Source of the DNA: Orobanche coerulescens
Taxonomy: Eukaryota; Streptophyta; Magnoliopsida; Lamiales; Orobanchaceae
Assembly (NCBI GenBank): GCA_033398695.1
Contig: JAWKAU010000045.1
Location: 124,001 to 188,000 of the forward strand
Length of the DNA: 64,000 nt
Reading direction: 5' to 3'
Below, piece by piece: positions 3,570-50,589 of this stretch. A program made the translations under genes and the position numbers. The notes below the pieces were generated by a model. That model had not been told where the DNA came from. It saw nothing but the letters and a program-made list of their open reading frames with translations, and ran no database searches. Each line of letters starts with the position of its first letter. Position 1 is the first letter of the stretch.

Positions 3570-4779
3570 GTTTAGGTGTATAAGGATTTGAGGAAGAATT
3601 ATTGGTGGAATGGCATGAAGAATGAGGTGGTGCAGTTTATGCCTAAGTGTTTGACTTGTCAGCAAGTCAAAATCGAATATCAGCGGCCAGTTGGATTGTT
3701 GAAACCACTTCCCATCCCGGAATGGAAGTGGAGAATGTCTCTATGGATTTTGTCATGAATTTGCTAAGGAAGAAGACGGGAGTGAACATGGTGTGGGTGA
3801 TCGTGGATCGACTAACTAAGTTGGCTCATTTTCTGGGCATCATGGACACTTGGGGACCAGAGAAATTGGCTCGTATATTTATTACGCAAATCGTGAGGCA
3901 TCATGGCATGCCGAAAACTATTGTTTCGGATAGGGATGGTCGGTTTGTATCGCATTTCTGGAAGGCGGTACATAAGGCTTTGGGGACACATTTGCGTTTG
4001 GCCAATTCCTTCTATCCTCAGACTGATGGACAGTCCGAGCGTACCATTCAAATGTTCGAGGATATGTTGCGCGTGAGTGCGCTAGACTGGAGTAGTGATT
4101 GGGAGGAACATCTGGACCTGATCAAGTTCACTTATTATAATAGCAGGCATGCATTGATTAAGATAGCACCGTATGAGGGGTTTTATGGCCGACGATGTCG
4201 ATCACCGATATGTTGGAATGAGCCATCTGATTTAGTTGGCACCGAGCTGGATCTTGTGTTGGAAACTAGGATGAGTTGATTCGAGAGAGAATGTTGGCGG
4301 CTCAGAGTCGACAAAAGTCCTATACGGATGTTAGGCGTCGACCCTTGGAGTTTGAGGTATGGGATCATGTCTTGTTAAGAGTGTCTCCGTCGAAAGAAGT
4401 TTCTCGTTTTGGGAAAAATGGAAAGATTAGTCCAAAGTATATTGGACCTTTCGAGATATTGGAGAGAGTTGGTGAGTTGGATTACCATTTGGCGTTACCC
4501 CCGTTGTTGAGCCATGTGCATAGTGTAATTCAAGTTTCTCAGTTGTGAAAGTATATTCCAGACCTGACTCACGTTATCGATTTTGGGGACATGGAAATCG
4601 AGAAGGATGTTATGTTTCAAGAGAGGCCGGTGAGGATTTTGGAACGTCGGGATAAACAGTTAAGGCACAAAACCATTCCTTTGGTTAAGGTGCAATGGTC
4701 AAGACATGGAGTGGAGGAAGCGACATGGGAATTGGAGGAGGATATGCGTGCAAGATACCCCAAGCTTTTTGATCCTTAA
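3570..4779 (+). pseudogene. A1: integrase, truncated at 5' end by element W
   Basis: The sequence begins in the integrase zinc region (MYKDLRKNYWW, then [10 protein letters not shown]). It continues through the catalytic core with D in VDRLTK, D in VSDRDGRF and E in DGQSERT, then the C-terminal domain ending YPKLFDP at the natural stop 4777-4779. A one-base change near 3735 shifts the frame in the zinc-to-core linker. Another break comes near 4270, and a TGA at 4546-4548 replaces a codon that is open in A2. The upstream part of A1 lies left of W, outside the window. Confidence 0.9.
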
Positions 4780-4814
4780 GTTTCGAGACGAAACTTCTTT
4801 TTAGAGTGGGAGAA
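4778..4814 (+). promoter_or_regulatory. A1: pre-PPT hairpin and polypurine tract
   Basis: An inverted repeat with arms AAGTTTCG and CGAAACTT (4778-4796) overlaps the pol stop. AGAGTGGGAGAA follows against the LTR start. It would prime plus-strand synthesis. Confidence 0.8.
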
Positions 4815-5333
4815 TATAATAACCTTACTTTCCATTTTTAGCATTTTTGATTTTTTGGGCGCATGTCTATTTTAACGACTCGCTTGTTACCGTTTTGATG
4901 TTGTGAATCTATTTTGTTATTGGTTATTTTACATTTTGACGAGTTTCGGAAGTGTTTTTACGTTATTCATTTTATGTTATGTTTTTGTCGCAAGTATGTT
5001 CGATTCTCATAAAACTCGTTCGATTTTGTTGTTTCTTTGTTCCCATGAGTCGGTATGATTGAGTTATTCGTGTTGTGAGTTTCGGTTTTATAAACTGACG
5101 CCGTATCATGATTTTTGGACGTTTTGGACCGTTTTGTAATTTCCTGAAGTTTAGGGACTTACTTCCATTTCTGTATCCCGAGCCGTCGAGTGGTCGGAAT
5201 CGTGCCTTCTTTTAGCGCTTAGATTCGTCGTTGCGAATACTTCGTAAATGTGCCTTTGAATTCCAACTTTTAGTTGTGTTCGGTTTCGCGCCTTCCTCAG
5301 CAGTGGGCTGCACTCAGCAGTATTGAACTGCTG

Positions 5334-5634
5334 CATGAATAGCGTACGCTATTCATGATTTCTTGTGCATGCTAGATGTACTTCAGTAGCGCCCGCTAGA
5401 ATCTCAGTAGCACGCGCCAATGTCCGGGTATTGCAGGGGACAATAGGTTCTGGACTCGGAATTATGGGTTCTTACTAGCAGGTAGCGCGCGCTAAGCTTT
5501 CATAGCGCACGCTAACGACTATCAGGTAGCGCGCGCTAAGATGTAGTAGCACACGCTAATGACACCGGGCAAAATCTACTCGACTATTGGCGATCCTGTT
5601 AGCGCACGTTATTTTCAAGAATTAGCGCACGCTA
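5334..5634 (+). promoter_or_regulatory. Palindrome array upstream of TATA box in LTR A
   Basis: A 24-bp perfect palindrome (5334-5357, centre TAGCGTACGCTA) is followed by eight 12-bp sites of the form TAGCGYRCGCTA. They start at 5387, 5408, 5483, 5503, 5527, 5547, 5600 and 5623. Neighbouring sites are 20-24 bp apart within clusters, about two turns of the helix. The last site ends 12 bp before the TATA box. A role as protein-binding sites is inferred. Confidence 0.8.
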
Positions 5635-5645
5635 ATTATACTTAG

Positions 5646-5653
5646 TATAAATA
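5646..5653 (+). promoter_or_regulatory. TATA box of the first A LTR
   Basis: TATAAATA directly follows the palindrome array and is kept in the other two LTRs (12609-12616 and 34113-34120). It is about 830 bp into the LTR and should set the start of the A transcript. Confidence 0.7.
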
Positions 5654-6278
5654 GGACTCAACAGTACACTTTTTGTCATTTTTCATCTCTTCTCATCCCT
5701 TGGGCGATTTCGAGCGATTTTGGGTGATTTATGAATATTAATCCGTGGAGTTCCTTAGTTTGTCGATTGTAGTACTCTGAAGGAAGTTACCATCATCCTT
5801 ATCATCATGTTTTGCCCGAATTCAAGATATTTTGGCATAGAACCCTAACTTTGTCAATTTTGGGGGGTTTTCGGGATTTGTCTATTTAAACTCGAGTTGT
5901 TCATTTATGTTGTGATATTTCTTATCGATTATTGTTATTGGGTGATTCCCAATCCGTTTCCATCGAGTTAAGTCCATAAAATTATTGATTCGGGGAGGTT
6001 TTGTGAAAACCTTCGCCCGTATTGATCATACGTGTATTGTTATGGTTGGTAATCAGGGTTGTGGGCGTATTCTGTTAGGTTATTGATGTCGTTTAGGACT
6101 GATTCATGTTAATCTCTCATTTAGGAGCGGACGTGTTCACTCCGTGTCATTCCTAGTCGTCGGTTATTTTCCGTCTCGTCGAAGATGTCTCAAAGGAAAG
6201 TACTTTACATTTGTATGCATATTCTAGTATTTAATTTATGGCTTCCCGTGTATGTCGTGGATGTGAATGCATATGTTC

Positions 6279-6384
6279 ACCCAGGGATGGTCTGACGGGG
6301 CCTCTGGGGATACGTAGTGCCGTGTGTATGCGTATCGTGAACTGGGGCTAACCACCCAGAGATGGTCCGACGGGGTCTCTGCGG
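6279..6384 (+). repeat. 74-bp-spaced direct repeat in R/U5 of LTR A
   Basis: Two diverged copies of a stretch of about 32 bp beginning CACCCAG and containing GATGGTCYGACGGGG start at 6279 and 6353. The same pair appears in the other A LTRs, and a related stretch appears in fragment G on the opposite strand. Confidence 0.7.
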
Positions 6385-6977
6385 GGTGCGTTGGCCGTGA
6401 GTCTCGTACCAACGGTTAACCTTTGAAATGTTTTGTTGGAGAACTATATTTTGTGCATGTGCACCTCAATATTCCAGAATATAAATATTTTTTAAATGAT
6501 TTTGGTGCATAATTCATCTGATTAGAATGGTAGTTCAAATGGATTGTACTTGCACTCGCTGTTGTCGCTAACCCCTTAAATGGGGGAAATACTTTTGTAT
6601 TTCAGGTACAGGTCATGGAGGCGATCGGGCATGCCTACAGTACGAGGATGATGGGCAATGGTGATTCTGTTCAATGGTCGTTTTCTTGGCGTCTTTTCTT
6701 TTAGTTTTATTAATTATGTCATTTGTTTCCGTATTCGGGTACTTTCTTCTTTTGCACTTGTATTTGTTTGTGGACCCTGTTTGGGAAAGATTGTATTTAT
6801 TACTGTCGGGTTCGGTCTATTTGTTTTGAATGTCTTAAAATTGTGGTATCGTTTGTATGTTGATGATGTTTGTCATCAGTCATGGTGTCGAGTTGGTGCG
6901 TTAGCCTGGTGGATTCCAAAGAGTTGGATCCACGGTGCTGTAATATGACCTGAACGTCTTGGGGGTGTTACAGAATA

Positions 6978-6989
6978 TGGTATTGTAGC
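6978..6989 (+). promoter_or_regulatory. A2: degenerate primer binding site
   Basis: Five bases inside the LTR lies TGGTATTGTAGC. It matches the usual plant initiator-tRNA-Met site TGGTATCAGAGC at 9 of 12 positions. A3 has the same variant at the same place, so it belongs to the family and is not a private mutation. Confidence 0.55.
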
Positions 6990-7189
6990 TTAGGCTTATG
7001 GATACCTAGGCTGTCGGTTATTTGGCTCTAGTCGAGTGTCATTTCCGAACAGTATCACTACTGTGCTATCATCTCAGTACGCCGGTGCTCGTAAGTTTTC
7101 CTATCTTGACTCGTTGCGTTTCCCTGTGTTGTTCCTTTCTTAATATCGTGATGTGTTTTGCATTTGAACTGTACTCACTAGTTACTTCT
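6990..7189 (+). other. A2: 5' leader
   Basis: This is untranslated leader between primer site and gag. I see no conserved reading frame in it. A homologous leader lies at 29104-29299 in A3. Confidence 0.6.
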
Positions 7190-8480
7190 TCAGAGTGCTT
7201 GCTGGTAGGGGAAGCGGACGTGGACGCAGTAGGGGATGTGGCACAGACGGTGGTGTGGCCATTTCCAATAGCTCTGAGGCTAGTTCGGCAACACCGTCTT
7301 TGTCGAACAGTGTTTAGCCTAGTGCCGAAGGTGAGCAGTATCAGTCTGCTAGCTTTGGTAATGTTAATGATAACGTCGGTGTAGGTAAAATTCTACAGCA
7401 AGTAGCGAATCAGATGGCGCTACTAACTCAGACGGTCCTGGTTAATCAGGCTAATGCTACTGCAGTTTTGCCTACTGGTTCTGGTACCGACAAGTTGCTT
7501 CAGGATGTGATTCGTATGCGTCCTCCACAGTTCAATGGTACTTCTGACCCCTCTGGTTAGGAGAGTTGGATATTTGAGATGGAAAAAGTATTTGAGGTAG
7601 CAAACTGCTCCGAGGAGAGGAAAGTATCAATTGCTCAGTCCTTTTCACCAAGAAGGCGGCCACGTGGAGGCAGGCAGTGAAACCGCGTGACTGGGAAGCT
7701 ACGTGGGATGAATTTAGGGAATTGATGGAGGCTGATTATTGTCCGTGGCCAGTGAAATAGGGAAGCATTAGAGCTTTCTTTGAGTCAAAACCCCAGGATG
7801 TTCCCCTCTATCAAGCAATCAAAGATTATAACCAGCAGCTACATTTCATGAGGAATTAGGTCCGGGATGAACAGGACAAGATCTGCCTCTTCGACATGCG
7901 GATGAAACCGAGGATTCGCCATTATATGTTAGGCCTTGGGTGTGCGACTTTGAAAGACTATCAGAACAAGGCGATGGCCTATGACATGTCTTTTTCTGCG
8001 ATGGAGATGGCAGCAGAGGGTAAGAAGCAGAATACTTCCGGTTAGTTTTCAGGAAGTAAGTTTGGCGGGCACCAGAAGACTCAGTCTGGACCGCGAGCCT
8101 TTGTGAATCATTCCCAGTAATTTGGGCGAGGCCATGGTTCTAAGTCTTCTCCGACTATTCCTGTTTGTGGTCATACGTGTTTTAATTGTGGTGGTCCGGG
8201 ACATATGATGAGTGATTGTGACAGGCCGCCGCTATAGTGTAATAATTATGGTCATATGAGGCATCGTGCTGCGTACTGTGGAGATGCGAGTCGGGCACCA
8301 GTTACTCAAGTGTCGATACCGGATACGAGAGAACCGAGTGTGAATTAGGCTCCGACAGTTAATCAGCCTCAGCAGAGTTTCGGCAGCGGTCGAGGACGTG
8401 GATAGTTTTATAGAGGGGGAGCGTCTAGTGTGGGGTCTGTTCCGCCCGTGTGTTTGAGATGAGATGAGCTGGAGATCCTA
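7190..8480 (+). pseudogene. A2: gag (decayed)
   Basis: The region encodes a gypsy capsid/nucleocapsid protein, which packages element RNA. Visible pieces are an Arg/Gly-rich N-terminus near 7200, a capsid stretch with PPQFNG (about 7530) and WIFEMEKVFE (about 7570), and a zinc knuckle CFNCGGPGHMMSDC at 8178-8219. A second knuckle is degenerate, having lost a cysteine. Many stops break the frame, for example in WIFEM upstream, at 7858-7860 and at 8044-8046. A3 shows the same order and shares several of the stops. Confidence 0.85.
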
Positions 8481-8488
8481 ACGCGACA

Positions 8489-8863
8489 GTGGCTACAGGT
8501 ACCGTTCACATCATTGACCATCCTGTTTTCGTGCTATTAACTTCTGGTGCTACGCATTCTTTCATCTCTTTGGATTGTGTGCGTCATCTGTATGTTGATT
8601 GTCTAGTTACATGTGAACCGTTTCTTGTTAAACTGCCTGTTGGAGATAGCACTGTGGGGAATCGTGAGGTTAGAGATTTTTCGGTGATTATTGCAGGGAG
8701 GGCTTGGTCTTCTAATCTGATTGTGGTAGATATTAAGGATGAGGATTTTATACTTGGGGAGGATTGGTTGGATCGACATGGGGTGATCATGAATTATAGA
8801 GGGAGGATTATTTCGGTGTTAGCCTATGATGGTACTGAACACTGCTTTGTGGGACGCAAATAG
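8489..8863 (+). pseudogene. A2: aspartic protease domain with active-site change
   Basis: A 124-codon open stretch matches the retroviral-type protease that cuts the Gag-Pol polyprotein. The usual DTGATHSFI active site reads TSGATHSFI (about residues 18-26), so the catalytic aspartate is lost. The distal ILGEDWLDRHG motif is recognisable near residues 88-98. A3 lacks this domain altogether. Confidence 0.85.
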
Positions 8864-9000
8864 TGCAGTCAGAGATTCTTGGTCTGTGCTATTCCTGACG
8901 TCTTTCTGGATAAGTTCCAGTTTTGACACCAGACCGTGACGTTGAGTTCACCATTGATTTAGAGCTGGGTGCGGCCCCGATTTCGGAAATGCTGTACTGT

Positions 9001-10230
9001 ATGGCGCCTGCCGAGATGCTTGAGTTGAAGAAACAGTTGGGAGAGTTGCTAGATATGGTTACACTCGACTGAGCGTTTCGCCTTGGGGTGCACCGGTCTT
9101 GTTCGTAAGGAAGAAGGATGGGTCATTGTGTTTATCCATCGACTACCGAGAGTTAAACAAGGTGACCAACAAAAACAAGTATCCGCTTCCCAGGACTGAC
9201 GACTTGTTCGACCAATTACAAGGAGCTACTGTGTTCTCAAAGATTGATTTGAGATCGGGATATTACCAACCCCGAGTGAAGGATTCCGATATTCCAAAGA
9301 TAGCCTTTAGGACGAGATACGGCCATTACGAGTTTGTGGTTATGCCATTCGGGCTAACCAATGCCCCAGTCGTGTTCATGCAGCTAATGAACAAGGTCTT
9401 CATCGAATATCTCGATTAGTGTGTAGTCGTATTTATCGATGATATTCTGATATACTCGAGGAGCAAGGAGGAGCATGCACGTCATCTGCATATCGTGTTG
9501 GAGATCTTGAGAACTCAGCGTCTTTATGCAAAGTTCTCAAAGTATGAGTTTTGGTTGGGGGAGGTTATGTTTCTCTGTCACATGATATAGGCTGAGGGTG
9601 TTCGTGTAGACCCACACAAGATAGAGGCATTGTTGGATTGGGCGCCGCCCAAGAACGTGAAGGAAGTCCATAGTTTTCTAGGTTTAGCGGGGTATTATCG
9701 AAGGTTTGTTGAGGGTTTCTCTAAACTCGCCCGACCGCTGACTCATTTGTTGCAGAATTCAGAGAAGTTTGTGTGGACAAACGAGAGACAGAAGAGTTTT
9801 GAAGAGTTGAATAAGCGGTTGACTACCGCTCCAGTCTTAACCTTACTATGCGGTAATGAGGGCTTTTCAGTTTATAGCGATGGCCCATGCTAAGGACTTG
9901 GATGTGTACTCATGCAGCACTGAAAGACGATTGCCTATGCTTCCCATCAGTTGAAACCGTATTAGTTGAATTATCCTACGCATGATCTTGAGTTCGCTGC
10001 AGTTGTGTTTGTATTGAAGATTTGGCATCATTACTTGTATGGCTCATCATGTTAGATTTTCACCGATCATAAGAGCCTGCAATATATTCATACAGGAAGA
10101 ACTGTATATGAGACAGGGAAGGTGGCTGGAACTAATCAAGGATTACGATCTCAAAATCCTTTATCATCCGGGCAAGGCAAATGTTGTGGCAGATGCCTTG
10201 ATTCGGAAATCGGGATCGCTTCGGGCATTT
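9001..10230 (+). pseudogene. A2: reverse transcriptase and RNase H (decayed)
   Basis: The RT begins [13 protein letters not shown] at 9001. It contains [26 protein letters not shown] and the catalytic FIDD at 9432-9443. A stop at 9417-9419 lies just before FIDD. The RNase H part runs from about 9630 ([22 protein letters not shown], then [12 protein letters not shown] near 10150) with stops around 9891, 9925 and 9961 and a frameshift near 10040. Together these copied element RNA into DNA in the ancestor; this copy cannot. Confidence 0.9.
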
Positions 10231-10489
10231 GAGTTACTCACAGCTCAGCCAGGGCTCCAGCGAGAGTTGGTGGGGTTGAGTATTGAGATTGTGTTACCAT
10301 AGAATGCTGGGCGGTTGTGCGCCCTTGAGATTTCTTCGTCGCTGGTCGACGACATTAAATCAAGACAGTTAGAAGATCTGATATTTATTCAACTCTGTGA
10401 ATATGTGGTTAAGGGGAAAGCCCGGGATTTCTGATTCATGAAGATTGTGTGTTAAGATTCCAAGGTCAGCTGTGTGTTCCGAATGACCT

Positions 10490-11866
10490 GTAATTGAGGC
10501 ATGGCATTATGCGGGAGGCTCATGCATCACCTTACTCAGTCCATCCAGGCTCGAGTAAAATGTATAAGGATTTGAGGAAGAATTATTGGTGGAATGACAT
10601 TAAAAATGAGGTAGTGCAGTTTGTGGCTAAGTGTTTGACTTGTCAGTAAGTCAAAATTGAACATCAGTGGCCAGCCGGATTGTTGAAACCACTTCCCATC
10701 CCGGAATGAAAGTGGGAGGACGTCTCTATGGATTTTGTCATGAATTTGCCGAGGACGAAGACGGGAGTGAACATGGTGTGGGTGATCGTGGATCGACTAT
10801 CTAAGTTGGCTCATTTTCTGGGCATCAAGGACACTTGGGGACCAGAGAAATTGGCTCATATATTTATTGCGCAGATCGTGAGGCTTCATGACACGCCAAA
10901 AACTATTATTTTGGACAGGGATGGTCGGTTTGTATTGCATTTCTGGCAGGCAGTACATAAGGCTTTGGGGACACATTTGAGTTTGAGCACATCCTTCCAT
11001 CCTGAGATCGATGAACAGTCCGAGCGTACCATTCAGATGTGCGAGGATATGTTGCGTGCGTGTGCGCTAGACTGGAGTACTGATTAGGAGGAACATCTGG
11101 CCCTGATCGAGTTCACTTATAATAATAGCTGGCATGCGTCGATTAAGATGGCACCGTATGAGGCGCTTTATGGCCGACGATGTCGATCACCGATATGTTG
11201 GAATGAGCCATCCGATTTAGTTGGCACTGATCCGGATCATGTGTTGGAAACTAGGAGGAAAGTCTAGTTGATTCGAGAGAGAATGTTGGTGGCTCAGAGT
11301 CAACAAAAGTCCTATGCGGATGTTGGGCATCGACCCTGGAGTTTGAGGTAAGGGATCATGTCTTGTTAAGAGTATCTCCGTCGAAGGGAGTTTTCTATTT
11401 TTGGAAAAAGGGAAAGCTTAGTCCAAGGTATATTGGACCTTTCGAGATATTGGAGAGAGTTGGCGAGCTGGCTTACCATTTGGCATTACCCCCGTCGTTG
11501 AGCCATGTGCATAGTGTAATTCACGTTTCTCAGTTGAGAAAGTATGTTACAGACCCAACTCACATTATCGATTTTGGGGACGTGGAAATCGAGAAGCATG
11601 TTACGTTTGAGGAGAGGCTGGTGAGCATTTTGGAACGTCGGGATAAACAGTTAAGGAACAAAACCATTCCTTTGGTTAAGGTGCAATGGTTGAGACATGG
11701 AGTGGAAGAAGCGACATGGGAATTGGAGGAGGATATGCATGCGACATACCCTGAGCTTTTTGATCCTATAGTTTCGGGACGAAACTTCTTTTTAGAGAGG
11801 GAGAATGTAATATCCTTACTTGCCATTTTTAGCATTTTCTATTTTTTGGGCGCATGTCTATTTTAA
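10490..11866 (+). pseudogene. A2: integrase, natural stop lost
   Basis: The zinc region (about 10550-10680), core (10728-11087, with the three acidic residues of the DD35E triad in VDRLSK, LDRDGRF and DEQSERT) and C-terminal domain (11363-11764) are all present. Stops interrupt at 10648-10650 and 11086-11088, and a frameshift lies near 11350. The normal TAA after LFDP has become TAT, so the last frame reads through the polypurine tract into the LTR and ends at 11866. Confidence 0.9.
11770..11805 (+). promoter_or_regulatory. A2: pre-PPT hairpin and polypurine tract
   Basis: Arms AGTTTCG and CGAAACT flank GGA at 11770-11786. AGAGAGGGAGAA then abuts the LTR start at 11806. It is the same arrangement as in A1 and A3. 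Confidence 0.8.
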
Positions 11867-12627
11867 CGACTCGCTTGTAACCATTTCGATGTTGTGAATA
11901 TATTTTGTTCTTGGTTATTTTCCATTTGGAAGAGTTTCAGAAGTGTTTTTATCTAATTCATTTTATGTTATGTTTTTGTCGCAAGTATGTTTGATTCTCG
12001 TACTCATTTGAGTCAATATAATTGAGTTATTCATGTTGTGAGTTTCGGTTTTATAATCCGACGTTGTATCTTGATTTTCGGACATTTTGGGCGGTTTTGT
12101 GATTTCCTGGAATTTACGGAACTTACTTCCATATCCGCATCCCAAGCCGTCGAGTGGTCGGAATCGTGCCTTCTTTTAGCACTTACATTCGTCGTTGCTA
12201 ATACTTCATAAATGTGCCGTTGAAATCCAACTTTTAGTTGTGTTCGGTTTCGTGCCTTCCTCAGCAGTGGGCTGCACTCAGCAGTATTGAACTGCTGCAT
12301 GAATAGCGTACGCTATTCATGATTTCTTGTGCATGCTAGATGTACTTCAGTAGCGGCCGCTAGCATCTCAGTTGCGCACGCCAATGTTCGGGTATTGCAG
12401 GGGACAGTAGGTTCTGGACTCGGAATTTTGTGTTCTTACTAGCAGGTGGCGCACGCTAAGCTTTCATAGCGCACGCTAACGACTATCAGGTAGCGCGCGC
12501 TAAGATGTAGTAGCGCACGTTAATGACACCGGGCAAAAGCTACTGGACTATTGGCGATCCTGTTAGCGCATGTTATTTTCTAGAATTAGCGCACCTAATT
12601 ATACATAGTATAAATAGGACTCAGCAG
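11806..12627 (+). repeat. Middle A LTR, left part (split by LINE)
   Basis: The LTR starts TGTAATATCC and matches LTR 4815-6972 up to just after the TATA box (12609-12616). It includes the 24-bp palindrome (12298-12321) and the following palindrome array. It stops at the LINE target duplication TCAGCAG (12621-12627). The rest of this LTR resumes at 27772. Confidence 0.9.
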
Positions 12628-13392
12628 GACAACCTTATGTGGACCAGCATGGCCAATTCTATTAGGAGGGTGGGCGAGAAGGTGGAAGGGGTTTCTTCGG
12701 GCAGGTCTAGTGGACATAGGGAGGCATGGTGGTGGAATGAGGAGGTCCAAAAGAAGGTTAAGGCAAAACAAGCGCTATTTAAGGAGCTTTTGTCGGTTAG
12801 TGCTGGGGAGGAGAGAATCATGAAGATTGTAGCGTACAAGGTGGCGAAAAGAGAGGGTAAGAAGGCAGTGGCTAAGGCTAAAGGTGAGGCTTACGAGGAG
12901 ATGTACAAGCACCTAGACACCAAAGAAGGTGCGAATGCTATTTTTAAACTAGCGAAAGCTAGGGAAAGAGGGCGGCGCGACCTGGGTCCCATTAAGTGTA
13001 TTAAGGATGATTTGGGCCAAGTGTTAGTGAACGATGTGGCTATTAAGGAGAGGTGGAATAGGTATTTTTTCGAACTTTTCAATGAGGCTAGGGGTAGTGA
13101 CTCGGTGGTGCAAGGATTTAGTCTATTTTCTGCTCGTTCGTTTAGTTCCTATGAGAGCATAAGCAAGGAGAAAGTAAAAGGTGCCCTAATGAAAATGGAT
13201 AGAGCTAAGGCTGTAGGCCCGAATCAGATCCCTATTGAGACGTGGCTTTGTCTAGGGGAAGTCGGAGTTCAGTGGCTAGCAGAGCTGTTCAACATCCTCC
13301 TCGGAGGTTCTAAGATGCGGATGGAGTGGAGGCATAGTATTGTCGTGCCATTTTTCAAGAACGAAGGTGATGCTCAGAGTTGTAGTAACTAT
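12628..13392 (+). pseudogene. LINE ORF, linker to RT N-terminus (5' truncated)
   Basis: A frame open from the LINE's first base encodes the part between endonuclease and reverse transcriptase: WWNEEVQKKVKAKQALFK, YKVAKREGKKAVAKAK, then KAVGPNQIPIE and WRHSIVVPFFKNEGD. The last is the start of the RT domain. It ends at SCSNY where LTR X is inserted, and the RT continues at 26108. No start codon of its own is expected because the 5' end is missing. Confidence 0.88.
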
Positions 13393-14885
13393 TGTTAGGA
13401 GTATGCCCTCGAATGTCACTCAGAGGTTGTTGAGTGAGGGCATTGTACTTGTAATTATGTAAACCATTTATATAAGGCAAATGAATGTTTCTTTATTTAC
13501 TGGTAGTTACTGGCATTCCTAACTCGTAAATAAACTTATAGAAACTAGTCCATGTATTTTAGAGCAAAACGTTCCACTCCTTATTGGATAAGGGGGTCGG
13601 CACTGAAAATGTTTATAGCTCAAATACTTAATCGTTCGCAAGTCGATGAAACTTGACTGGGCGTTAAGTTTATGTGAATACTTGTATGACGTGTTCTTTG
13701 ACATGGAGAGTGCCTGTCGAACACTAATGGTTAGTGGGAGCACACGTTATAGGTATGCTTATTAGATTAGTATACTCGAACCGACTCACCCTCGATTCGT
13801 CACACGGATTTCACTCCGGGACAGTCAATGACGGAATCGAAAGGTTCTGATAGGTATTCGTGAACCTTCGACTTGAGGATTTAGTAGGGATGTGCTTGTG
13901 ACGTCAAGATTTTCATTAGAGTAGTTCGACCCTGTAAACCGGAAGGCGGGGGTCAACCTCGACGTGCATCTTGACAGGCAAGTAGCAGGTCCTACTGAAT
14001 ACCAAGATAGAATTCTTTCTCCTGTTAGTGAACGGGTTATATGTCCTATGCGGTTATTGGAAGATGAGATCATAAGTCTTTGGCCAAAGCATTGGAGCTA
14101 GCTGTATTAGATACACGAGAGCTCGATGATCTCGATTTGCATTAACGCATGCATAGCGTCAAGTACAGATAGGGTTTGACTGACCGTGACCCTATAACTT
14201 GATCGGGATATTTGAAAGAAGGGTTTATACGTATACTGGTATTCACGACAGAATGGTTCTTGAATGATCCCAATGATTCATTCTCAGTCGGGGTACAGTG
14301 TAGGCCACGAGGCTGGCTAGGTGGTGCTACTACTCTTTGGTTCCTCCCATTGCTGACTGAGACGGACCTACCGAGTCGCGCATTAGGATTGACGACGGAA
14401 TGAATTAAGCTAAGTCTCTCTTTATAAATATTGGATATTGGATATCTAATTTATTGGGACATTGGATGTCTAAATTGATTTATTGGATAAATTAATTTAC
14501 GGCCTAATGAATTAAATAAATTACTGGGTGATTAATTTAATTCGTGAATATAATTATTTCTTGGAGAAATTAATTATGTCATAATGTATTTGATATGATT
14601 AAATTAATTGGATTAATTAATTGATATAAATACATCGGAACGGAATCGGAGTTTATCTGTTTGGACTCACGGGAGTCCGAAACGAACCGAACTCGTCCGA
14701 ATTTCATCTTGGCCCCCCTCCCTCTTTCCACCTTGCTTCCTTTTGTTTCTTGTTCCACTCTTTAATGGATGATTAAGACTTGTGGGGCAAGTGTTGTAGT
14801 GGGATGAGTTGTTACCTTGGGTGGGAATAGAATAAAAGTAGAAGACATCATCTCTCAAATGATTCATTCATTTCTCACGGTTTAT

Positions 14886-14932
<47 letters not shown>

Positions 14933-15120
14933 ATTTTGAGTTCATTTCTTAAGTCTTCTTCTTGTTCTTCATTTCTTCTTGGTTTTCTTTGAGAAATTTC
15001 AAGAGATTAATTGAGAGTTGTGAGTTATACACTTAGAGTGTGATAATCTCATATTGCAAGCTTCATCACCTAGCTCTAGCCGTATCCTCGGAGGATAGCA
15101 AGGTGTTGTCATTCCGTTCG
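13393..15120 (+). repeat. Solo LTR X, left part (copy 1)
   Basis: It starts TGTTAGGAGTATGCCC right after ACTAT in the LINE and matches 24115-25820 closely. It ends at ATTCCGTTCG, where element Y begins. The undisturbed copy continues here with TTTTTCCGG. No coding capacity is evident; the short open frames are in an LTR. The TGTTAGG start and the CTTCCGCTG element near the end (in the full copy) resemble the LTR of copia element C. Confidence 0.85.
14886..14928 (+). repeat. (GA)n microsatellite in LTR X
   Basis: About 21 GA units lie in this copy. The duplicate copy at about 25606-25627 has roughly half as many. This explains most of the length difference between the two X copies. Confidence 0.9.
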
Positions 15121-16752
15121 TGTAACACCCCCAAAATATCCCGAGGTATTACAGTGCCGTGAATCCCACGTGGGACCCACAAGGCTAGTTAGAAAAATAG
15201 ACATTTTAAGAAAATCGTGATAAAACCTTAAATTCAAGGGTTACATGACAAGAAACGAAAGATTTAAGGAAAAATGTAATTCGGAGAATTATTACACAAC
15301 ATATGTTTTTCCAAAGAAAATAATTTATTCCAATTTAAGCAACGGCTAGAGATAATTCCAACACCGCTCAAGTCTGACCGACTCTGAATGTCCCGCACAT
15401 GATGAACAATTTTACAGTATGACGAGTCATACCAGGTTGCCAGGGTCAGAGAATGCATATCAAATAACAACTACTAACAACAATATGCGACATTTTTACA
15501 ATCACCGTACCTAGCAATCACAAGGAATATTTCATCATTCAACCGACGTGTCTCCCTCTTTATCACATAAACCCCCAAGGTCGCAACCAAGGGTCACGGA
15601 AGTATCCACACGGGAATACCCCGGAACATAGGTGCCCAATTCGGGTCTTACCCCCTAACACATTTCCACACGGGTACCATACAGGTTTTATCCCCAACAC
15701 ATCGGCCCATTTATAACATCTTTAGAAAAAGACAACGTCGGCTTTTATCAAAATGGCACGTACACACATACGGTATAACATTGATATTAGAAATTCACGA
15801 GCAAGATTTCACTTGCCTGTGATCCGATAGTAGGTGCTTTATGATAACGAAGTCCCCACGCCCGTTCGAGCTTAACCTAGCCACGAGACACCCGATTAAC
15901 ACTTCGTACGGATCATAATGAATAAAACTAGTCTCCCTTTCCTAACCGGATTCCTAGTGTAGTTTTAATTGTCGGTATGAGTATCGTTTCCAAGTTTTCA
16001 AGTGTCGTTTATCTCGTTCAATCTTATAGTTAACATTAGGTATATCGATTTACTCAAGAAGATAATCCTACCATTCTTCGGTTGTCAACGAATTATTATG
16101 GCGAAATCGAATCTTATGCTTTCTAATGCAATTCTATATTCCGAATACTACAATCGACGGATTTTATTGCACAATAACTCCGGTGGTTTAACAACCAATA
16201 TTAATTATACTATCAAATTACTTCCTTAGTTTGCTAAGTGTCAAAAATCACAAGGTGAGGGTGACTACGAACAATGGAACATACGGTGACGGATTACTAC
16301 GAATTTCCCCACAATTGATTCGTCAAATTTTACATTCCTAGTGATGATTTGAAGTGAAATTTCGTTTGCATGAAACGAAACATATAAGAAACGGAATTTC
16401 TGGTTACTACAATTTCATCCGACAAGATTGTCTACGAAGTTTAGCAAAATCTAACCCATACCCGCAATATAACAAGTATTAACTAAGAAAACGTCGAAGA
16501 TATAACTCCAGGGATTGGTGGCTTACCTTTTTGGAAGAAAATAGTGAAGATAGTTGACGGATTCACAAGAACTACGAGGAGAACGAGAAGTGACTTGAAC
16601 GACTTGGATAATCTTCACCGGAGCTCAAGAATCCACCTCCTTAATGTTAATTCAAGTGTTTAAGGCTTAAGAACCGGGTATAGGGCTAGGAATTTCTCCA
16701 AGGGTGGTAGTTTTGTGGTGTTGGGTCGTGCAAATGAAGAAGGGAGTTATCA

Positions 16753-16759
16753 TTTTATA
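16753..16759 (-). promoter_or_regulatory. TATA box of LTR Y
   Basis: The minus strand reads TATAAAA here, about 15 bp downstream (in element direction) of the nearest palindrome. It is retained in the other LTR. Confidence 0.6.
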
Positions 16760-16773
16760 AAACTGGATTTTGA

Positions 16774-17086
16774 TAACGTACGTTAACGATAAGAGTGTTA
16801 CGTACGTAAGGTGTATTACGTACATAACAGTGCGATGACAACGTACGTAAAGAACTAACTACCCGAAATGTGCCCAAGTGTTACGTACGTTAATTTTGGG
16901 ACATTACGTACGTAACAAACAGTTGACTCGTTTGTCATCTAGCCCGCCGAAAGTAGCCCTGTCCGTGTCAAAAGAAAGATTCTGGTCAGGAGACCGACCC
17001 ACCCGTTACGTACGTAATATGGCTGCCTTAACGTACGTAACCATTGAAATTTAGCGTATGTTAGGCATGGGTTATAGCGCGCGTTA
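16774..17086 (-). promoter_or_regulatory. Palindrome array upstream of TATA in LTR Y
   Basis: Sites of the form TTACGTACGTAA or TAACGTACGTTA start at 16774, 16798, 16816, about 16839, 16881, 16904, 17006 and 17029. Two further sites, TAGCGTATGTTA (17052) and TAGCGCGCGTTA (17075), resemble the family A motif. The last four start exactly 23 bp apart. The layout next to the TATA box parallels family A. Confidence 0.8.
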
Positions 17087-22180: not shown

Positions 22181-22185
22181 TTTTC

Positions 22186-23939
22186 TGTAACACCCCCAAA
22201 ATATCCCGATGTATTACAGTGCCGTGAATCCCACGTGGGACCCACAAGGCTAGTTAGAAAAATAGACATTTTAAGAAAATCGTGATAAAACCTTAAATTC
22301 AAGGGTTACATGACAAGAAACGAAAGATTTAAGGAAAAATGTAATTCGGAGAATTATTACACAACAAATGTTTTTCCAAAGAAAATAATTTATTCCAATT
22401 TAAGCAACGGCTAGAGATAATTCCAACACCGCTCAAGTCCGACCGACTCCTGGGAATGTCCCGCACATGATGAACAATTTTACAGTATGACGAGTCATAC
22501 CAGTTGCTGTGGTCGAGAATGCATATCAAATAACAACTACTAACAACAATATGCGACATTTTTACAATCACCGTACCTAGCAATCACAAGGAATATTTCA
22601 TCATTCAACCGACGTGTCTCCTTCTTTATCACATAAACCCCCAAGGTCGCAACCAAGGGTCACGGAAGTATCCACACGGGAATACCCCGGAACATAGGTG
22701 CCCAATTCGGGTCTTACCCCCTAACACATTTCCACACGGGTACCATACAGGTTTTATCCCCAACACATCGGCCCATTTATAACATCTTTAGAGAAAGACA
22801 ATGTCGGCTTTTATCAAAATGGCACGTACACACATACGGTATAACATTGATATTAGAAATTCACGAGCAAGATTTCACTTGCCTGTGATCCGATAGTAGG
22901 TGCTTTATGATAACGAAGTCCCCACGCCCGCTCGAGCTTAACCTAGCCACGAGACACCCGATTAACACTTCGTACGGATCATAATGAATAAAACTAGTCT
23001 CCCTTTCCTAACCGGATTCCTAGTGTAGTTTTAATTGTCGGTATGAGTATCGTTTCCAAGTTTTCAAGTGTCGTTTATCTCGTTCAATCTTATAGTTAAC
23101 ATTAGGTATATCGATTTACTCAAGAAGATAATCCTACCATTCTTCGGTTGTCAACGAATTATTATGGCGAAATCGAATCTTATGCTTTCTAATACAATTC
23201 TATATTCCGAATACTACAATCGACGGATTTTATTGCACAATAACTCCGGTGGTTTAACAACCAATATTAATTATACTATCGAATTACTTCCTTAGTTTGC
23301 TAAGTGTCAAACGGTGGAACAATGGAGGGTGACTACGAACAATGGAACATACGGTGACGGATTACTACGAATTTCCCCACAATTGATTCGTCAAATTTTA
23401 CATTCCTAGTGATGATTTGAAGTGAAATTTCGTTTGCATGAAACAAAACATATAAGAAACGGAATTTCTGGTTACTACAATTTCATCCGACAAGATTGTC
23501 TATGAAGTTTAGCAAAATCTAACCCATACCCGCAATATAACAAGTATTAACTAAGAAAACATCGAAGATATAACTCCAGGGATTGGTGGCTTACCTTTTT
23601 GGAAGAAAATAGTGAAGATAGTTGACGGATTCACAAGAACTACGAGGAGAACGAGAAGTGACTTGAACGACTTGGATAATCTTCACCGGAGCTCAAGAAT
23701 CCACCTCCTTAATGTTAATTCAAGTGTTTAAGGCTTAAGAACCGGGTATAGGGCTAGGAATTTCTCCAAGGGTGGTAGTTTTGTGGTGTTGGGTCGTGCA
23801 AATGAAGAAGGGAGTTATCATTTTATAAAACTGGATTTTGATAACGTACGTTAACGATAAGAGTGTTACGTACGTAAGGTGTATTACGTACGTAACAGTG
23901 CGATGACAACGTACGTAAAGAACTAACTGCCCGAAATGT
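22186..23939 (-). repeat. Element Y: 5' LTR, truncated
   Basis: It matches 15121-16873 with few differences, then joins LINE sequence at 23938-23940 (2-bp shared CC). Lost are the outer 478 bp of U3 and with them part of the palindrome array. The TATA box and the four proximal palindromes remain. Confidence 0.92.
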
Positions 23940-24114
23940 GCCGAATCAGATCCCTATTGAGACGTGGCTTTGTCTGGGGGAAGTCGGAGTTCAGTGGCTA
24001 GCAGAGCTGTTCAACATCCTCCTCGGAGGTTCTAAGATGCCGACGGAGTGGAGGCATAGTATTGTCGTGCCATTTTTCAAGAACGAAGGTGATGCTCAGA
24101 GTTGTAGTAACTAT
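23938..24114 (+). repeat. Duplicated LINE fragment
   Basis: This 177-bp piece repeats LINE positions 13216-13392 (from CCGAATCAGATCC to ACTAT) with several substitutions and reads PNQIPIETWLCLG. It carries the ACTAT target site directly before the second LTR X. It is part of a segmental duplication, not a separate LINE insertion. Confidence 0.92.
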
Positions 24115-27470: not shown

Positions 27471-27771
27471 CAAGGAGCTGTGCGCAGAGTCAACCTCTCT
27501 TCTGTTAGAGCAGCGTTCATCGGGAGTGAAGTAGCCAATTCTGTTAGGTAAGTCCCATTTGGATTAAGACATGGGCTCAGGTATAGTATCGAGCTTTTTC
27601 GAATCATATGCTTTCCTTTGTATTTATCACTCAATATTCTGCTGTACACTAAGCTGGGGGTCTTCACGGAAACAGCCTCCCTACCATAATAAGTAGGGGC
27701 ATGGTTTGTGTACATCTTACCCTCCCCAGACCCTGCTCTGAGCGGGATATACTGGGTATGTTTGGTTTGGT
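27471..27771 (+). other. LINE 3' untranslated region
   Basis: This noncoding 3' tail ends CTGGGTATGTTTGG, next to the target duplication. Plant RTE elements typically end in a TTG-rich tail of this kind. Confidence 0.75.
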
Positions 27772-29086: not shown

Positions 29087-29091
29087 GAATA

Positions 29092-29299
29092 TGGTATTGT
29101 AGCTTAGGTTTATGGATACCTAGACTGTCGGTTATTTGGGTCTATTCGAGTGTCGTTTCCGAACAGTATCACTACAATGCTATCATCTCGGTACGCCTGT
29201 GCTCGTAAGTTTTCCTAACTTGACTCGTTGCTTTTCCCTGTGTTGTTCCTTTCTTAATATCGTGATGTGTTTTGCGTTTGAACTGTAGTCACTAGTTAC
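29092..29299 (+). other. A3: degenerate primer site and 5' leader
   Basis: TGGTATTGTAGC at 29092-29103 is the same variant primer site as in A2. The rest is untranslated leader homologous to 6990-7189, with no gene visible. Confidence 0.6.
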
Positions 29300-33250: not shown

Positions 33251-33285
33251 GTTTCGGGACGAAACTTCTTTTTAGAGTGGGAGAA
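33249..33285 (+). promoter_or_regulatory. A3: pre-PPT hairpin and polypurine tract
   Basis: Arms AAGTTTCG and CGAAACTT (33249-33267) overlap the stop codon. AGAGTGGGAGAA follows, up to the LTR at 33286. Confidence 0.8.
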
Positions 33286-35424
33286 TGTAATATCCTTACT
33301 TCCCAATTTTAGCATTTTCTATTTTTTGGGCGCATGTCTATTTAACGACTCGCTTGTAACCGTATCGATGTTGTGAATATATTTTGTTCTTGGTTATTTT
33401 CCATTTGGACGAGTTTCAAAGTGTTTTTAGGTAATTCATTTTATGTTATGTTTTTGTCGCAAGTATGTTCAATTCTCGTACTTGTTCGATTTCGTTGTTT
33501 CTTTATTCCCATGAGTCAGTATGATTGAGTTATTCGTGTTGTGAGTTTCGGTTTTATAATCCGATGTTGTATCTTGATTTTCGGACGTTTTGGGCTGTTT
33601 TGTAATTTCCTGGAGTTTACGGAACTTACTTCCATTTTCGCATCCCGAGCTGTCGAGTGCTCGGAATCGTGCCTTTTTTTAGCACTTACATTCGTCGATG
33701 CTAATACTTCATAAATGTGTCTTTAAATTCCAACTTTTAGTTGTGTTCGGTTTCGCGCCTTCCTCAGTAGTGGGCTGCACTCAGCAGTATTGAACTGCTG
33801 CATGAATAGCGTACGCTATTCATGATTTCTTGTGCACGCTAGATGTACTTCAGTAGCGCCCGCTAGCATCTCAGTAGTGTGCGCCAATGTCCGGGTATTG
33901 CAGGGGACAGTAGGTTCTAGACTCGGAATTCTGGGTTCTTACTAGCAGGTGGCGCGCGCTAAGCTTTCATAGCGCACGCTAACGACTATCAGGTAACGCG
34001 CGCTAAGATATAGTAGCGCACGCTAATGACACCGGAAAAAAGCTACTGGACAATTGGCGATCCTGTTAGCGCACGTTATTTTCAAGAATTAGCGCACGCT
34101 AATTATACTTGGTATAAATAGGACTCAGCAGTACACTTTTCATCATTTTTCATCTCTTCTCATCCCTTGGGCAATTTCCAGCAATTTTGGGTGATTTATG
34201 AATATTAATCCATGGAGTTCCCTAGTTTGTCAATTGTAGTACTCTGAAGGAATTTACCATCATCCTAATCATCATGTTTTGCCCGAATTCAAGATATTTT
34301 GGCTTAGAACCCTAACTTTGTCAATTTTAGGGGGTTTTCGGGATTTGTCTATTTAAACTCTAGTTGTTCATATATGTTGTGATATTTTTAATCGATTATT
34401 GTTGTCGGGTGATTCTCAATCCTTTTCCATCGAGTTAAGTCCGTGAATTGTTGATTCGGGGAGGTTTTGTGAAAACCCTCGCCCGTATTGATCGTATGTG
34501 TATTGTTATGGTTGGTAATCGGGGTTGTGGGTGTATTCCATTTGATTATCGTTTATGACTTATTCATGTTAATCTCTCATTTAGGAGTAGACGTGTTCAC
34601 TCTAGGTCATTCCCAGTCGTCATTTATTTTCCATATCGTCGAAGATTTCTCCAAGGCAAGTGCTTTACATTTGTATACATATTCTAGTATTTGATTTATG
34701 GCTTCCCGTGTATGTTGTGGATTTGAAGGCATATGTTCACCGAGGGATGGTCTCTAGGGATACGTAGTGCCGTGTGTATACGTATTGTGAACTGGGGTTA
34801 ACCACCCAGGGATGGTCCGACGGGGCCTCTGCGGGGTGCGGTGGCCGTGAGTCTCGTACCAACGGTTAACCTTTGAAATGTTTTGTTAGAGAACTATATT
34901 TTGTGCATGTGCACCTCAATATTCCGGAATATAAATGTTTTCTAAAATAATTTTTGGCGCGTAATTCATCTGATTAGAATGGTAGTTCAAATAGATTGTA
35001 TTTGCACTAGCTGTTGTCGCTAACCCCTTAGATGGGGGAAATACTTTTGTATTTCAGGTATAGGACATGGAGACGATCAGGCATGTGGACAGTACGAGGA
35101 TGATGGGCAAGGGTGATTATGTTCAATGGTTGTTTTCTTGGTGTCTTGTCTTTTAGTTTTATTAATTATGGCATTTGTTTCAGTACTCGAGTACTATCTT
35201 CTTTTGGACTTGTATTTGTTTGTGGACCTGGTTTGGGAAAGATTTTATTTATTACTGTCGGGTTCGGTCAATTTATTTTGAATGTCTTAAAATTGTGGTA
35301 TCGTTTGTATGTTGATGATGTTTGCCATCAGTCATTATGTCGATTTGGTGCGTCAGCCTGGTGGATTCCAAAGGGTTGGGTCTACAGCGTTGTAATATGT
35401 CATGAACGTCTTGGGGGTGTTATA
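33286..35424 (+). repeat. Right-hand A LTR
   Basis: This 2,139-bp LTR starts TGTAATATCC and ends GGGTGTTATA, with the terminal C changed to T. It has the 24-bp palindrome at 33801-33824, the array to 34101 and the TATA box at 34113-34120. It closes the A array. The following sequence is fragment G. Confidence 0.9.
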
Positions 35425-45870: not shown

Positions 45871-48223
45871 TGTAACACCCCAAACTAGGCGGATATTACA
45901 GTGCCGTAGATCCCCAATTGGGACCCACCAGGCAAATGAAAATGAATGAATTACACAGGATAAATGTAGTACCGAACCACATTACAACAATAATTACTCC
46001 AATGAGGAGTTTAGTTACAACACACCAGGACAATACCGAATACTAGTGTATTTTATATGAAGATAAAATATACAACACTGAATGAAACGGAGTATCCAAA
46101 TGAAAGTCTGCAGCGGAAAATAAAGGATAATAACATGAATAGCTGAAAGATCGGGGCCCTCTACTAGTATCACTAGGACTCCTCGACATCAACATGCTAT
46201 TCCCGTGCGTTTGCCTTGCCATGACCTGAAAAACAAAATCCCCAGCCGGGGTCAGTTAAACAGAACAACAATCCTCAAGGGTTGAAAATACACAAACATG
46301 ATTTAACTGAAGTTATGAAATATCCTTAGTTATGAATTACGCTGAAGAGGAGCATCATAGTACGCCCGTAGTGTTCTGTGCAAGTGTACAAGACGGATGA
46401 CCGGACCCACCCATCCTTGTACCTAATTAGTCTCACGGAGGTAATCGTTACCGTGTGCACAGTCCAATGTATCACTCCCAATACATGGCCCTCATGTGCC
46501 CGACTAAAAATTCCACACATCCGCACCCGGCAACGCAATATGAACCCAGAAGGTCATATGAACGAGAATGACCGTAATGAATATCAATGAATAAATAATA
46601 ATCTGACAAAGTCAAGAATGACTCACCGAGATGAGAGTAATAATGAAGTGATTGATAGTTTCAATGGAATGATTGGAACCGCCGTTCCCGTTAATGAAGT
46701 GATTGTTCAACAATTACAAGTCTCAATATGATTAATACAATGATGAATGAGTTATGATTATGAATGATCAACAACAAAAGGAATTAATATCCTTTTAACC
46801 GAGTAAGAATTAACTTACACAATACCGATGAAGAATGTCCTTCCACGAACAAACGTCCTAAATGAAGTGTCGGTCACTCGAACAACCTTGAATAACACAA
46901 TTACCAACAATCCGCTCAATAAACAAATCAAACACGATTATAACGAACTCAAGGCGTCAAAACGACTAAACCAAGTTCATTGGGGCATTATATCGAACAC
47001 TTTGTCGCCAACTTCGATTGTTCATAACCAAACTTCAAAAATACCAACATCAAATCCCCAAGAAGTGTTTCAAACCATCAAAACATCTTCAATACGATCA
47101 ATAATCCATTATGAATATCCAAAATCGTGATTACAACGACAATTAATCGAAAACCTCCAAATCAAACTTAATATTCAAAGTGTTCTTGAATAATTCTTCA
47201 ATAATCCAATGCATAATCATACATATTCATAATCATGCGTACATCACTTCATACAACATGATTTAAACGGCTAAAACAACATATCTCAATACAAAATCGA
47301 AATCCAAGATGTTTGATGAAGATTACCGTTGAAGATTCAAGCACTATGATTCGAAGAACACGCGATAGATCGATGATCCGAGCTTCACAACCGAATGAAA
47401 ATGATTAAAAACCACACTCAAGTGATAATTGATGAAGAAATCTCTCCCTCAAGACTCTCTCTCTCGTATGAAGGTGGAAGAAAAGGAAGGAATGAGCTGA
47501 AATGCTCAAAAAACGAAATTATAGGGGTTGACTGGTCTGTCGGACACGGCCCGTGCCGATCGGCACGGCCGCGGCGCGCAACTGGCCGGCAGGGACTCGA
47601 CCGTGTCCTGCTTGACCCGGTCGCGGCGCGAAGGGGCCTTTCGATAGTGACCTGTCCGACAGTGACTCGGTACCGCTACGGCAATGACTCGACCGTGTCC
47701 TGGAACACAGTCGGGCGTCTGGGCAGTCGGTTCTGGCTTATCCGGAAGAGTTCGACTCGGCCGTGCCAGATGACACGGTCGGGTCCTGTGGCAGAGACTT
47801 CGGAATTTCCGGACGAGTACAGCACGGCCGTGTCGGACGACACGGCCGAATTCGGTCGGCAGTGATCGGCCAAAAACTGAAAAATGAGTGGGTGAGCTAA
47901 AACGACCATAACTCTCTCGTCCGGACTCCGATTGACTCACCATTTGAACCATTGGAAAGCTAACTCGATGCTCTATAATATTGCAAAGATTCAGAATTTT
48001 TTGAGTTACCAAAAATTAATGGTGATTTAACAAAATCGAACTCATATGTGGAAAGTTGAAACAATGTACAATAACGATACACAACTCGAAGTTTTTCCGA
48101 ACGGTGAACACGGGTGAATGAACATGATTGATGAATGATTATAAATGAGTGAAAATCCACTGAGTGACAATCACCGAATGAAATTACTGAATGATAATGA
48201 CTGAATTACAACCGAGTATTACA
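45871..48223 (-). repeat. Element Z: 3' LTR
   Basis: It starts TGTAACACCCCAAACTAGG and ends GAGTATTACA on the plus strand, 2,353 bp. A TATA-like CTATAATT lies on the minus strand near 47517-47524, with GC-rich dyads at 47543-47860 just upstream. GC-rich frames here are on both strands and not credible genes. Confidence 0.93.
47543..47860 (-). promoter_or_regulatory. GC-rich dyad array upstream of TATA in LTR Z
   Basis: The array opens with an 18-bp perfect palindrome, CCGTGCCGATCGGCACGG (47551-47568). It then repeats CGACCGTGTC or CGGCCGTGTC followed within 10 bp by GACACGGTCG or GACACGGCCG. The other LTR keeps the set (54236-54556); its dyad at 54384-54407 has 9-bp arms CGACCGTGT and ACACGGTCG. 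Confidence 0.75.
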
Positions 48224-50490: not shown

Positions 50491-50589
50491 GGGGCGTGAC
50501 GGCTCCAACTCACTCCGAATTCCACTACTCTATGTGAAGGCAACCGGATAACTCGTGCGGAAATACATCGTCAATCGATGACAATAATA

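Follow-up and report, generated by a model that had tools for sequence, protein, structure and literature searches.

In a 64-kb stretch of one contig of Orobanche coerulescens (GenBank JAWKAU010000045.1, positions 124,001 to 188,000; hereafter the window), three long terminal repeats (LTRs) of retrotransposons, here called A, Y, and Z, carry palindromic sequences upstream of their TATA boxes. In A and Y, these form an array, i.e., a row of 12-base-pair (bp) palindromes, and searches of the 3.65-Gb genome (1279 contigs) identify such arrays as a genuine promoter feature of the retrotransposons in this genome that is widespread and of unusual regularity. Judging from sequence and layout, we consider it probable that the arrays are promoter-proximal enhancers in the U3 region of the LTR that are bound by dimers of host proteins. 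The initial annotation of this DNA had grouped all three LTRs under the same place and the same geometry with different sequences; this describes A and Y well, but not Z.

Each array comprises ten sites, arranged as 4+4+2 in A and 4+2+4 in Y (Table 1). For Y, about ten palindromes had been anticipated between 16774 and 17086, and ten are found there. For A, the nine palindromes originally listed between 5340 and 5634 are all in place, but a tenth at 5363 had been missed; this site is decayed in the window, and is included in the 4+4+2 arrangement because the dyad is matched at ≤1 mismatch by 68% of the 44 aligned family copies. When palindromes were counted per segment against 500 dinucleotide shuffles, perfect 12-bp palindromes numbered three in A (shuffle mean 0.21, maximum 2) and four in Y (mean 0.16, maximum 2). 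At ≤1 mismatch, the eight palindromes in Y are above every shuffle (mean 2.37, maximum 7), which does not apply to the seven in A (mean 2.42, maximum 8). The two Y sites at 17052 and 17075, described earlier as A-like, are hybrids in which one half is of A type and the other of Y type. A distance of 12–15 bp from the nearest site to the TATA box had been proposed for both LTRs, which agrees with the 14 bp in Y but not with the 11 bp in A.

The layout is also found in other copies of the two families. Array A is present in two further copies in the window itself, the third copy having steps of 23, 24, 96, 20, 24, 20, 53, and 23 bp. Additional A loci from across the genome were collected with an array query and with a separate query downstream of the A TATA box, the best 40 matches being scored per search; the A and Y samples therefore consist of best-scoring, non-random matches. 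Of 48 A loci fetched, 45 were aligned, including the window reference, and the 44 copies keep a mean of 8.84 of the ten sites at ≤2 mismatches, compared with 0.00 in shifted windows. Among the 32 A loci found without the array query, 29 keep a mean of 8.55 sites. The gap between the last site and the TATA box is 11 bp in 33 of the 45 aligned rows and 10 bp in two, with no value obtained in the remaining ten, and all 29 Y copies retain ten of ten sites. The proposed check that family copies should keep both the palindromes and their spacing relative to the TATA box thus gave a mostly favorable outcome, with the caution that copies of one family share descent.

Genome-wide, pattern counts were controlled by the same pattern read backwards. 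A single A site, TAGCGYRCGCTA, occurs 1,309,842 times (108 for the control), A pairs with 4–16 bp between the sites occur 462,410 times (control 0), and Y pairs with 0–30 bp between the sites 172,866 times (control 2). An A site is located 2–32 bp before TATAWA in 77,695 + 88,545 cases (control 5 + 2), a count in which TATATATA boxes score twice for one site. Two viral contigs hold a pair, which we assume to be due to chance. Distributions of pitch and TATA gap were obtained from the first 100 places listed per pattern, where neighbors include both LTRs of one element and are not independent. The pitch of A pairs, with 16–28 bp allowed, is 23 bp in 55 and 24 bp in 34 (89 of 100 together), and that of Y pairs, with 12–42 bp allowed, is 23 bp in 57, 24 bp in 21, and 18 bp in 16. 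The earlier description of the spacing as near two helical turns cannot be upheld, since a pitch of 23/24 bp corresponds to ~2.2 turns, with a minor class at 18 bp; helical phasing at two turns would call for 21 bp, and was rejected. The TATA gap, with 2–32 bp allowed, is 11 bp in 24 and 12 bp in 22 places, the other 54 being spread over 2–32 bp. These 11–12 bp equal the length of the spacer between sites, and the TATA box therefore fills the next slot of the lattice.

To describe individual arrays, 54 were read, namely 15 from one end of contig C1, 37 more, and the two window arrays. Because the 52 arrays outside the window come from pattern lists that begin at the start of C1, they represent ~4 Mb of that contig and show enrichment for A/Y pairs; sites were called at ≤1 mismatch. 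TATAWA is found 9–15 bp from a site in 33 of the 54 arrays, and the gap is exactly 12 bp in six of the 15 C1 arrays that were read first. Grouping by BLAST yields 13 unlinked groups, one of which has 38 members. With one representative per group, the 42 blocks contain one (4), two (19), three (3), four (15), or six (1) sites, and 35 are even-sized (P = 5e-9 if steps are independent). Over all 54 arrays, related ones included, the corresponding figures for 189 blocks are 19, 70, 24, 75, and 1, with 146 even. Within tetrads of the representatives, 28 of 30 outer steps and 8 of 15 middle steps measure 23/24 bp; for all arrays, the values are 130 of 150 and 51 of 75, respectively. The working unit is likely to be a pair of dyads. 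The spacers show nothing comparable: for 69 spacers of 11 bp from 17 arrays, identity is 0.268 between arrays and 0.291 within arrays, where 0.256 is expected by chance, while the called sites, which were selected at ≤1 mismatch, are nearly exact.

These properties bear on two alternative explanations. By plain tandem duplication, the arrays would be old short tandem repeats, and their regular spacing would be a relic of the original unit length. A single 44-bp tandem duplication can be seen within the second tetrad of A (5474–5517 / 5518–5561), and spacer identity within arrays is slightly above chance. Yet if spacers are close to random, unselected 12-mers should be so too, and exact matches exceed the control ~12,000-fold; even block sizes and TATA register are also left unexplained, and we regard this origin as very improbable. 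Alternatively, the palindromes could be structural and form hairpins or cruciforms by which small-RNA silencing is attracted or evaded; this has been proposed for the LTR palindromes of maize Sirevirus elements, which are described as hotspots of small-RNA mapping (PMC5311732, in part; here and below, "in part" denotes sources covered in part). Segment Z would suit such a role: it has a dyad of 10-bp arms, and of two stretches one (z −2.89) surpasses 199 of 200 shuffles in folding and the other has a z of −1.20. One stretch each of A and Y, on the other hand, folds no better than shuffles (z −0.50 and −1.33), on which basis RNA structure was rejected for these two LTRs, and a sharp pitch of 23/24 bp, even blocks, and TATA register are not expected of independent small hairpins. 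A structural role is in our judgment rather improbable.

The sites of A and Y share the core CG-N2-CG and differ in their half-sites, which are TAGCG in class A and TWACG in class Y. Among sites with both halves intact, 290 are A/A, 114 Y/Y, and 36 mixed, and none of the 53 arrays with at least six intact half-sites falls in the range of 40–60% A, a gap that stems in part from picking by A- or Y-type patterns. Sixteen BLAST links join Y-class to A-class LTRs, of which 14 have no site inside the match and two touch one site. When L151 is compared with L127 and L130, the arrays cannot be aligned and the sequences on either side match again (92 or 90%, and 66–70%), which looks like replacement of a cassette in place, and template switching or recombination may be responsible. 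The idea that sites turn over while the layout is kept is supported for A and Y, since related LTRs differ in site class and have the same layout. The exchange of arrays also makes regulatory turnover in LTRs countable.

Certain boxes recur between the blocks. ACTGGACT or its complement is present in this position in 12 of 53 arrays from five groups, and AGTTGACT in 10 arrays of three groups; the latter contains TTGAC, the W-box core. In 20 shuffles, no 8-mer occurred in more than five arrays, although arrays within a group are related. Such recurrent boxes would be compatible with a composite enhancer. The block gaps of L111, L112, L116, L122, and L132 also contain a second palindromic box, AGTCCAGT facing TACTGGACT at 11 bp start to start, and a third site form, TTACG-W-CGTWA (11 bp, the center being one base shorter), was noted by eye in L148 and L152 with a pitch of ~22 bp.

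With respect to the carriers, open pieces of Y match the RVT_1, RNase H, integrase, and aspartyl protease families as well as SH3_Tf2-1, and those of A and Z match SH3_Tf2-1, Z also RNase H; no domain match was obtained for the A piece at 3647–4279. Among the 120 relatives listed for the Y reverse transcriptase, those with names are mostly flowering-plant sequences, mainly of Tanacetum and Cucumis melo, with Sarracenia and Drosera also represented; the best identity is 84%. The SH3_Tf2-1 matches are clear in all three, and Chromo scores are 23.1 (Y), 20.1 (A), and 21.2 (Z) bits, below the Pfam cut-off of 25.1. By their encoded domains, A, Y, and Z thus appear to reside in gypsy elements of the chromodomain type, the Chromo matches being weak. 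Arrays are present in copia elements as well. In L128, the array is preceded by a Ty1/copia reverse transcriptase, seen as RVT_2 in neighboring L164 (a search of solved structures with the L128 open frame gave no match), and L165, which lies between the array of L116 and a matching one ~8 kb further on, also contains RVT_2. In L121 (G000:C1:105400-105800), an A-type array lies directly beside a Ty1/copia RVT_2 coding stretch, as if an LTR piece had been inserted or the array and the copia stretch had been joined. Sharing of the array by gypsy and copia may reflect convergent gain or ancient capture.

This sharing is the main reason why a host factor is preferred over a protein encoded by the elements. 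In the latter case, the sites would be targets of an anti-silencing protein of an element or TE (transposable element) family, like VANC of VANDAL elements, with A and Y as two co-evolving specificities. VANC21 targets are short, dense, non-coding motifs in one orientation, and between related copies their repeats have diverged in concert (Hosaka et al. 2017, PMC5735166, in part). The class purity and replacement of the arrays look similar, and the predominance of CA centers in class A, described below, resembles arrays in one orientation. That gypsy and copia share the site makes the own protein of a single family unlikely, although one VANC is reported to act also on an unrelated TE (PMC5735166, in part). 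VANC targets are moreover tandem repeats with similar spacers, and the spacers of A and Y arrays are unrelated. We consider an element-encoded binder unlikely.

For the preferred binding by host proteins, the following mechanism can be envisaged. Each 12-bp quasi-palindrome, with the half-site T-W-R-C-G, would most likely accommodate one dimer of a DNA-binding protein of the host. Two such dimers at a distance of 23–24 bp would work as one pair, and tetrads would be stacked pairs, the nearest pair often being in register with the TATA box. Many sites could provide strong and fault-tolerant transcription of the element, i.e., activation rather than repression, and replicating lineages would for that reason keep the layout despite drift of the spacers, while classes A and Y may take each other's place as complete cassettes among related LTRs. 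The earlier proposal of sites for dimeric host factors is partly supported: it finds support for A and Y, in kept sites, near-random spacers, and preferred pitch and TATA distance, and none for Z as a third example of one geometry. More tentatively, in a form that may well not hold, unrelated superfamilies of one plant lineage could share a quantized promoter code of 12-bp dyads, paired with a pitch of 23/24 bp (or 18 bp), grouped by two or four, and placed in TATA register. This code would be read by a few host dimers and switched between A and Y by exchange of U3 cassettes, so that host factors partition the retrotransposons into regulons. A 12-bp word at 1.3 million places, in LTR promoters wherever followed up, would constitute an unusually large candidate regulatory set, and one host factor or a small family may control many element lineages, which bears on how retrotransposons filled a large genome. 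In simple physical terms, the pairing and the pitch together predict two dimers ~23 bp apart.

Several observations weigh against such a function. The arrays outside the window all come from the first 4 Mb of one contig. Three of the 48 fetched A loci, all found via the query downstream of the TATA box, hold no sites (L069 and L070) or two poor ones (L090). The TATA box of L116 is 38 bp from the last site, and tetrads that break the 23/24-bp rule for outer steps occur in A of the window (20, 24, 20) and in L113, L116, and L117. When class A arrays with four or more such sites are oriented by the TATA box, the center is CA in 164 sites and TG in 9, a directionality that a symmetric homodimer would not require; in some families, sites near the TATA box have a TG center, and both centers occur twice in L142. 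An account by symmetry alone was rejected on these grounds, and the A site is better described as a quasi-palindrome, for which a heterodimer, an asymmetric pair, or plain common descent are possible explanations. Class Y centers are the symmetric TA in 111 of 114 sites. Finally, column diversity within families is similar in sites and spacers, 0.193 vs 0.203 in A, where 104 of 294 circular shifts are as low, and 0.0109 vs 0.0108 in Y. This equality fits decay after insertion and offers no positive evidence, and within-family conservation was rejected as proof of function, the outcome being negative overall. Non-CpG site columns are below the spacers (0.128 vs 0.187 in A, 0.0049 vs 0.0106 in Y), and the most variable columns in A are CpG.

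The site changes in A copies, which are mostly at CpG, are consistent with methylated, silenced copies. This would speak for a reading in which the arrays are recognition sites of a host DNA-binding silencer and owe their conservation to the evolution of that protein to match them. Loss of sites would then benefit the elements, and yet unlinked families hold up to 20 sites at a sharp pitch. We find a silencer quite unlikely, and activation by host dimers remains the preferred reading.

Among known systems, palindromes ahead of the TATA box of an LTR have a clear precedent in the repeated motifs of Sirevirus elements (Ty1/copia). These boxes are palindromic, with at least 8 and up to 32 copies per element that form CpG islands. 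Most of them lie before a TATA box within the upper LTR half, and the motif varies by family with symmetry kept; a regulatory role has been suggested (Bousios et al. 2010, PMC2829016, in part). They are called Sirevirus-specific, and the motif section of that paper gives no fixed pitch. The A and Y arrays are alike in having ten palindromic sites each before the TATA box (at 11 and 14 bp), which is above the lower limit of eight. They differ in their CG-N2-CG core, as opposed to CGG-CCG, in the gypsy carriers of A, Y, and Z, in occurring in both gypsy and copia, in the 23/24/18-bp pitch, in blocks of two and four, and in the often 11–12 bp to the TATA box. In addition, one A/Y motif is common to unlinked families, unlike the family-specific motif of Sirevirus boxes. 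LTRs of Del elements have variable 5′ CpG islands, which the eudicot Del elements of that study lack; the word palindrome is absent from its text, and no TATA register is given in the parts covered (PMC4029996, in part). VANC arrays constitute a precedent for motif classes that change between related TEs. As for A and Y, a short motif occurs many times in non-coding TE DNA, but the VANC21 motif YAGTATTAY is non-palindromic, is arranged in tandem repeats, and has an element-encoded binder (PMC5735166, in part). Short interrupted repeat cassettes in Arabidopsis are similar in that short repeats are broken by diverse DNA and tied to mobile elements; they differ in being direct repeats, thought to derive from miniature inverted-repeat transposable elements (MITEs), and no LTR promoter position or pitch is seen in the part covered (PMC10342631, in part).

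As a candidate for the binding protein, a NAC factor is a lead for the Y sites rather than a finding. NAC proteins bind as dimers to a core TTNCGT[G/A], with a preference of ANAC019, ANAC055, and ATAF1 for TACGT (PMC4081100 and PMC4844398, both in part). The Y half-site TTACGTA fits this core and this preference, and the Y-type site TTACGTACGTAA corresponds to two overlapping inverted TTACGTA. In the palindromic NAC site screened in those papers, CGT-N7-8-ACG, the two halves are separated, whereas CGT and ACG abut in Y sites. The TAGCG halves of class A are unlike the NAC half-site; A-type sites centered on CA or TG hold a CGT core in one half, and those centered on CG hold none.

A search of the NAC literature by motif string gave nothing usable among the entries listed, and the literal dyad strings matched seven of 5.39 million papers, no title of which concerned plant retrotransposons. 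Among the papers listed for the dyads and for LTR palindromes, no other arrangement of this kind is reported, as judged mostly by titles and abstract openings and with few subscription journals covered. Outside plants, the Su(Hw) insulator of the Drosophila gypsy element likewise has about a dozen spaced copies of a host-protein site in a retrotransposon, and differs in being located in the 5′ untranslated region of an animal element, with a zinc-finger protein and a non-palindromic, AT-rich site.

The GC-rich dyads reported for Z are real, but their geometry is another one. They are 24 bp long, with CGRCCGTGYC facing GRCACGGYCG, contain CGGCCG, and are repeated at 67, 68, 90, and 52 bp. No perfect A- or Y-type site is present between 47401 and 48000, and the 12-bp palindromes of Z are within the shuffle range, with one perfect (mean 0.15, maximum 2) and five at ≤1 mismatch (mean 2.33, maximum 7). 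Lacking 12-bp CG-N2-CG dyads at 23/24 bp, Z was rejected as a third member of the A/Y layout. It is more similar to the CGG-CCG boxes of Sirevirus elements than to A or Y, and is best considered separately.

Table 1. Palindromic arrays, TATA boxes, and segment Z in the window (sites given by start position, steps in bp)
Feature	Position	Strand	Description
Array A, distal tetrad	5340..5419	+	Sites 5340, 5363 (decayed), 5387, 5408; steps 23, 24, 21
Array A, second tetrad	5483..5558	+	Sites 5483, 5503, 5527, 5547; steps 20, 24, 20
Array A, proximal pair	5600..5634	+	Sites 5600, 5623; step 23
LTR A TATA box, TATAAATA	5646..5653	+	11 bp after last site (23 bp start to start)
Second copy of array A	12304..12598	+	8 sites at ≤1 mismatch; G000:C45:136298-136616
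Third copy of array A	33807..34101	+	9 sites at ≤1 mismatch; G000:C45:157801-158120
LTR Y TATA box, TATAAAA	16753..16759	-	14 bp after last site
Array Y, TATA-proximal tetrad	16774..16850	-	Sites 16774, 16798, 16816, 16839; steps 24, 18, 23
Array Y, middle pair	16881..16915	-	Sites 16881, 16904; step 23
Array Y, distal tetrad	17006..17086	-	Sites 17006, 17029, 17052, 17075; steps 23, 23, 23
Truncated second Y LTR	23842..23918	-	TATA-proximal tetrad only: 23842, 23866, 23884, 23907
Segment Z	47543..47848	-	GC-rich dyads

Some features of the surrounding elements were also noted. The A elements appear chained at 3577–13000 and 26592–35422 in the order LTR-internal-LTR-internal, with LTRs shared, as after unequal recombination, and what is presumably a tRNA-iMet-like primer site follows the LTR end near 6973. 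The Y-related blocks 13219–16874 and 22183–25821 are permuted, with segments X (13219–15121 / 23941–25821, 97.4%) and W (15117–16874 / 22183–23942, 98.2%) in opposite order, and the right-hand Y LTR of the window has lost the distal array. On C1, Y-class arrays ~2.6–3.2 kb apart form runs of two or three at L150, L154, L158, L161, and neighboring places, which may represent short elements or units in tandem. Self-BLAST reveals a tandem repeat of ~56 bp adjacent to the Z element, at 50567–50953.
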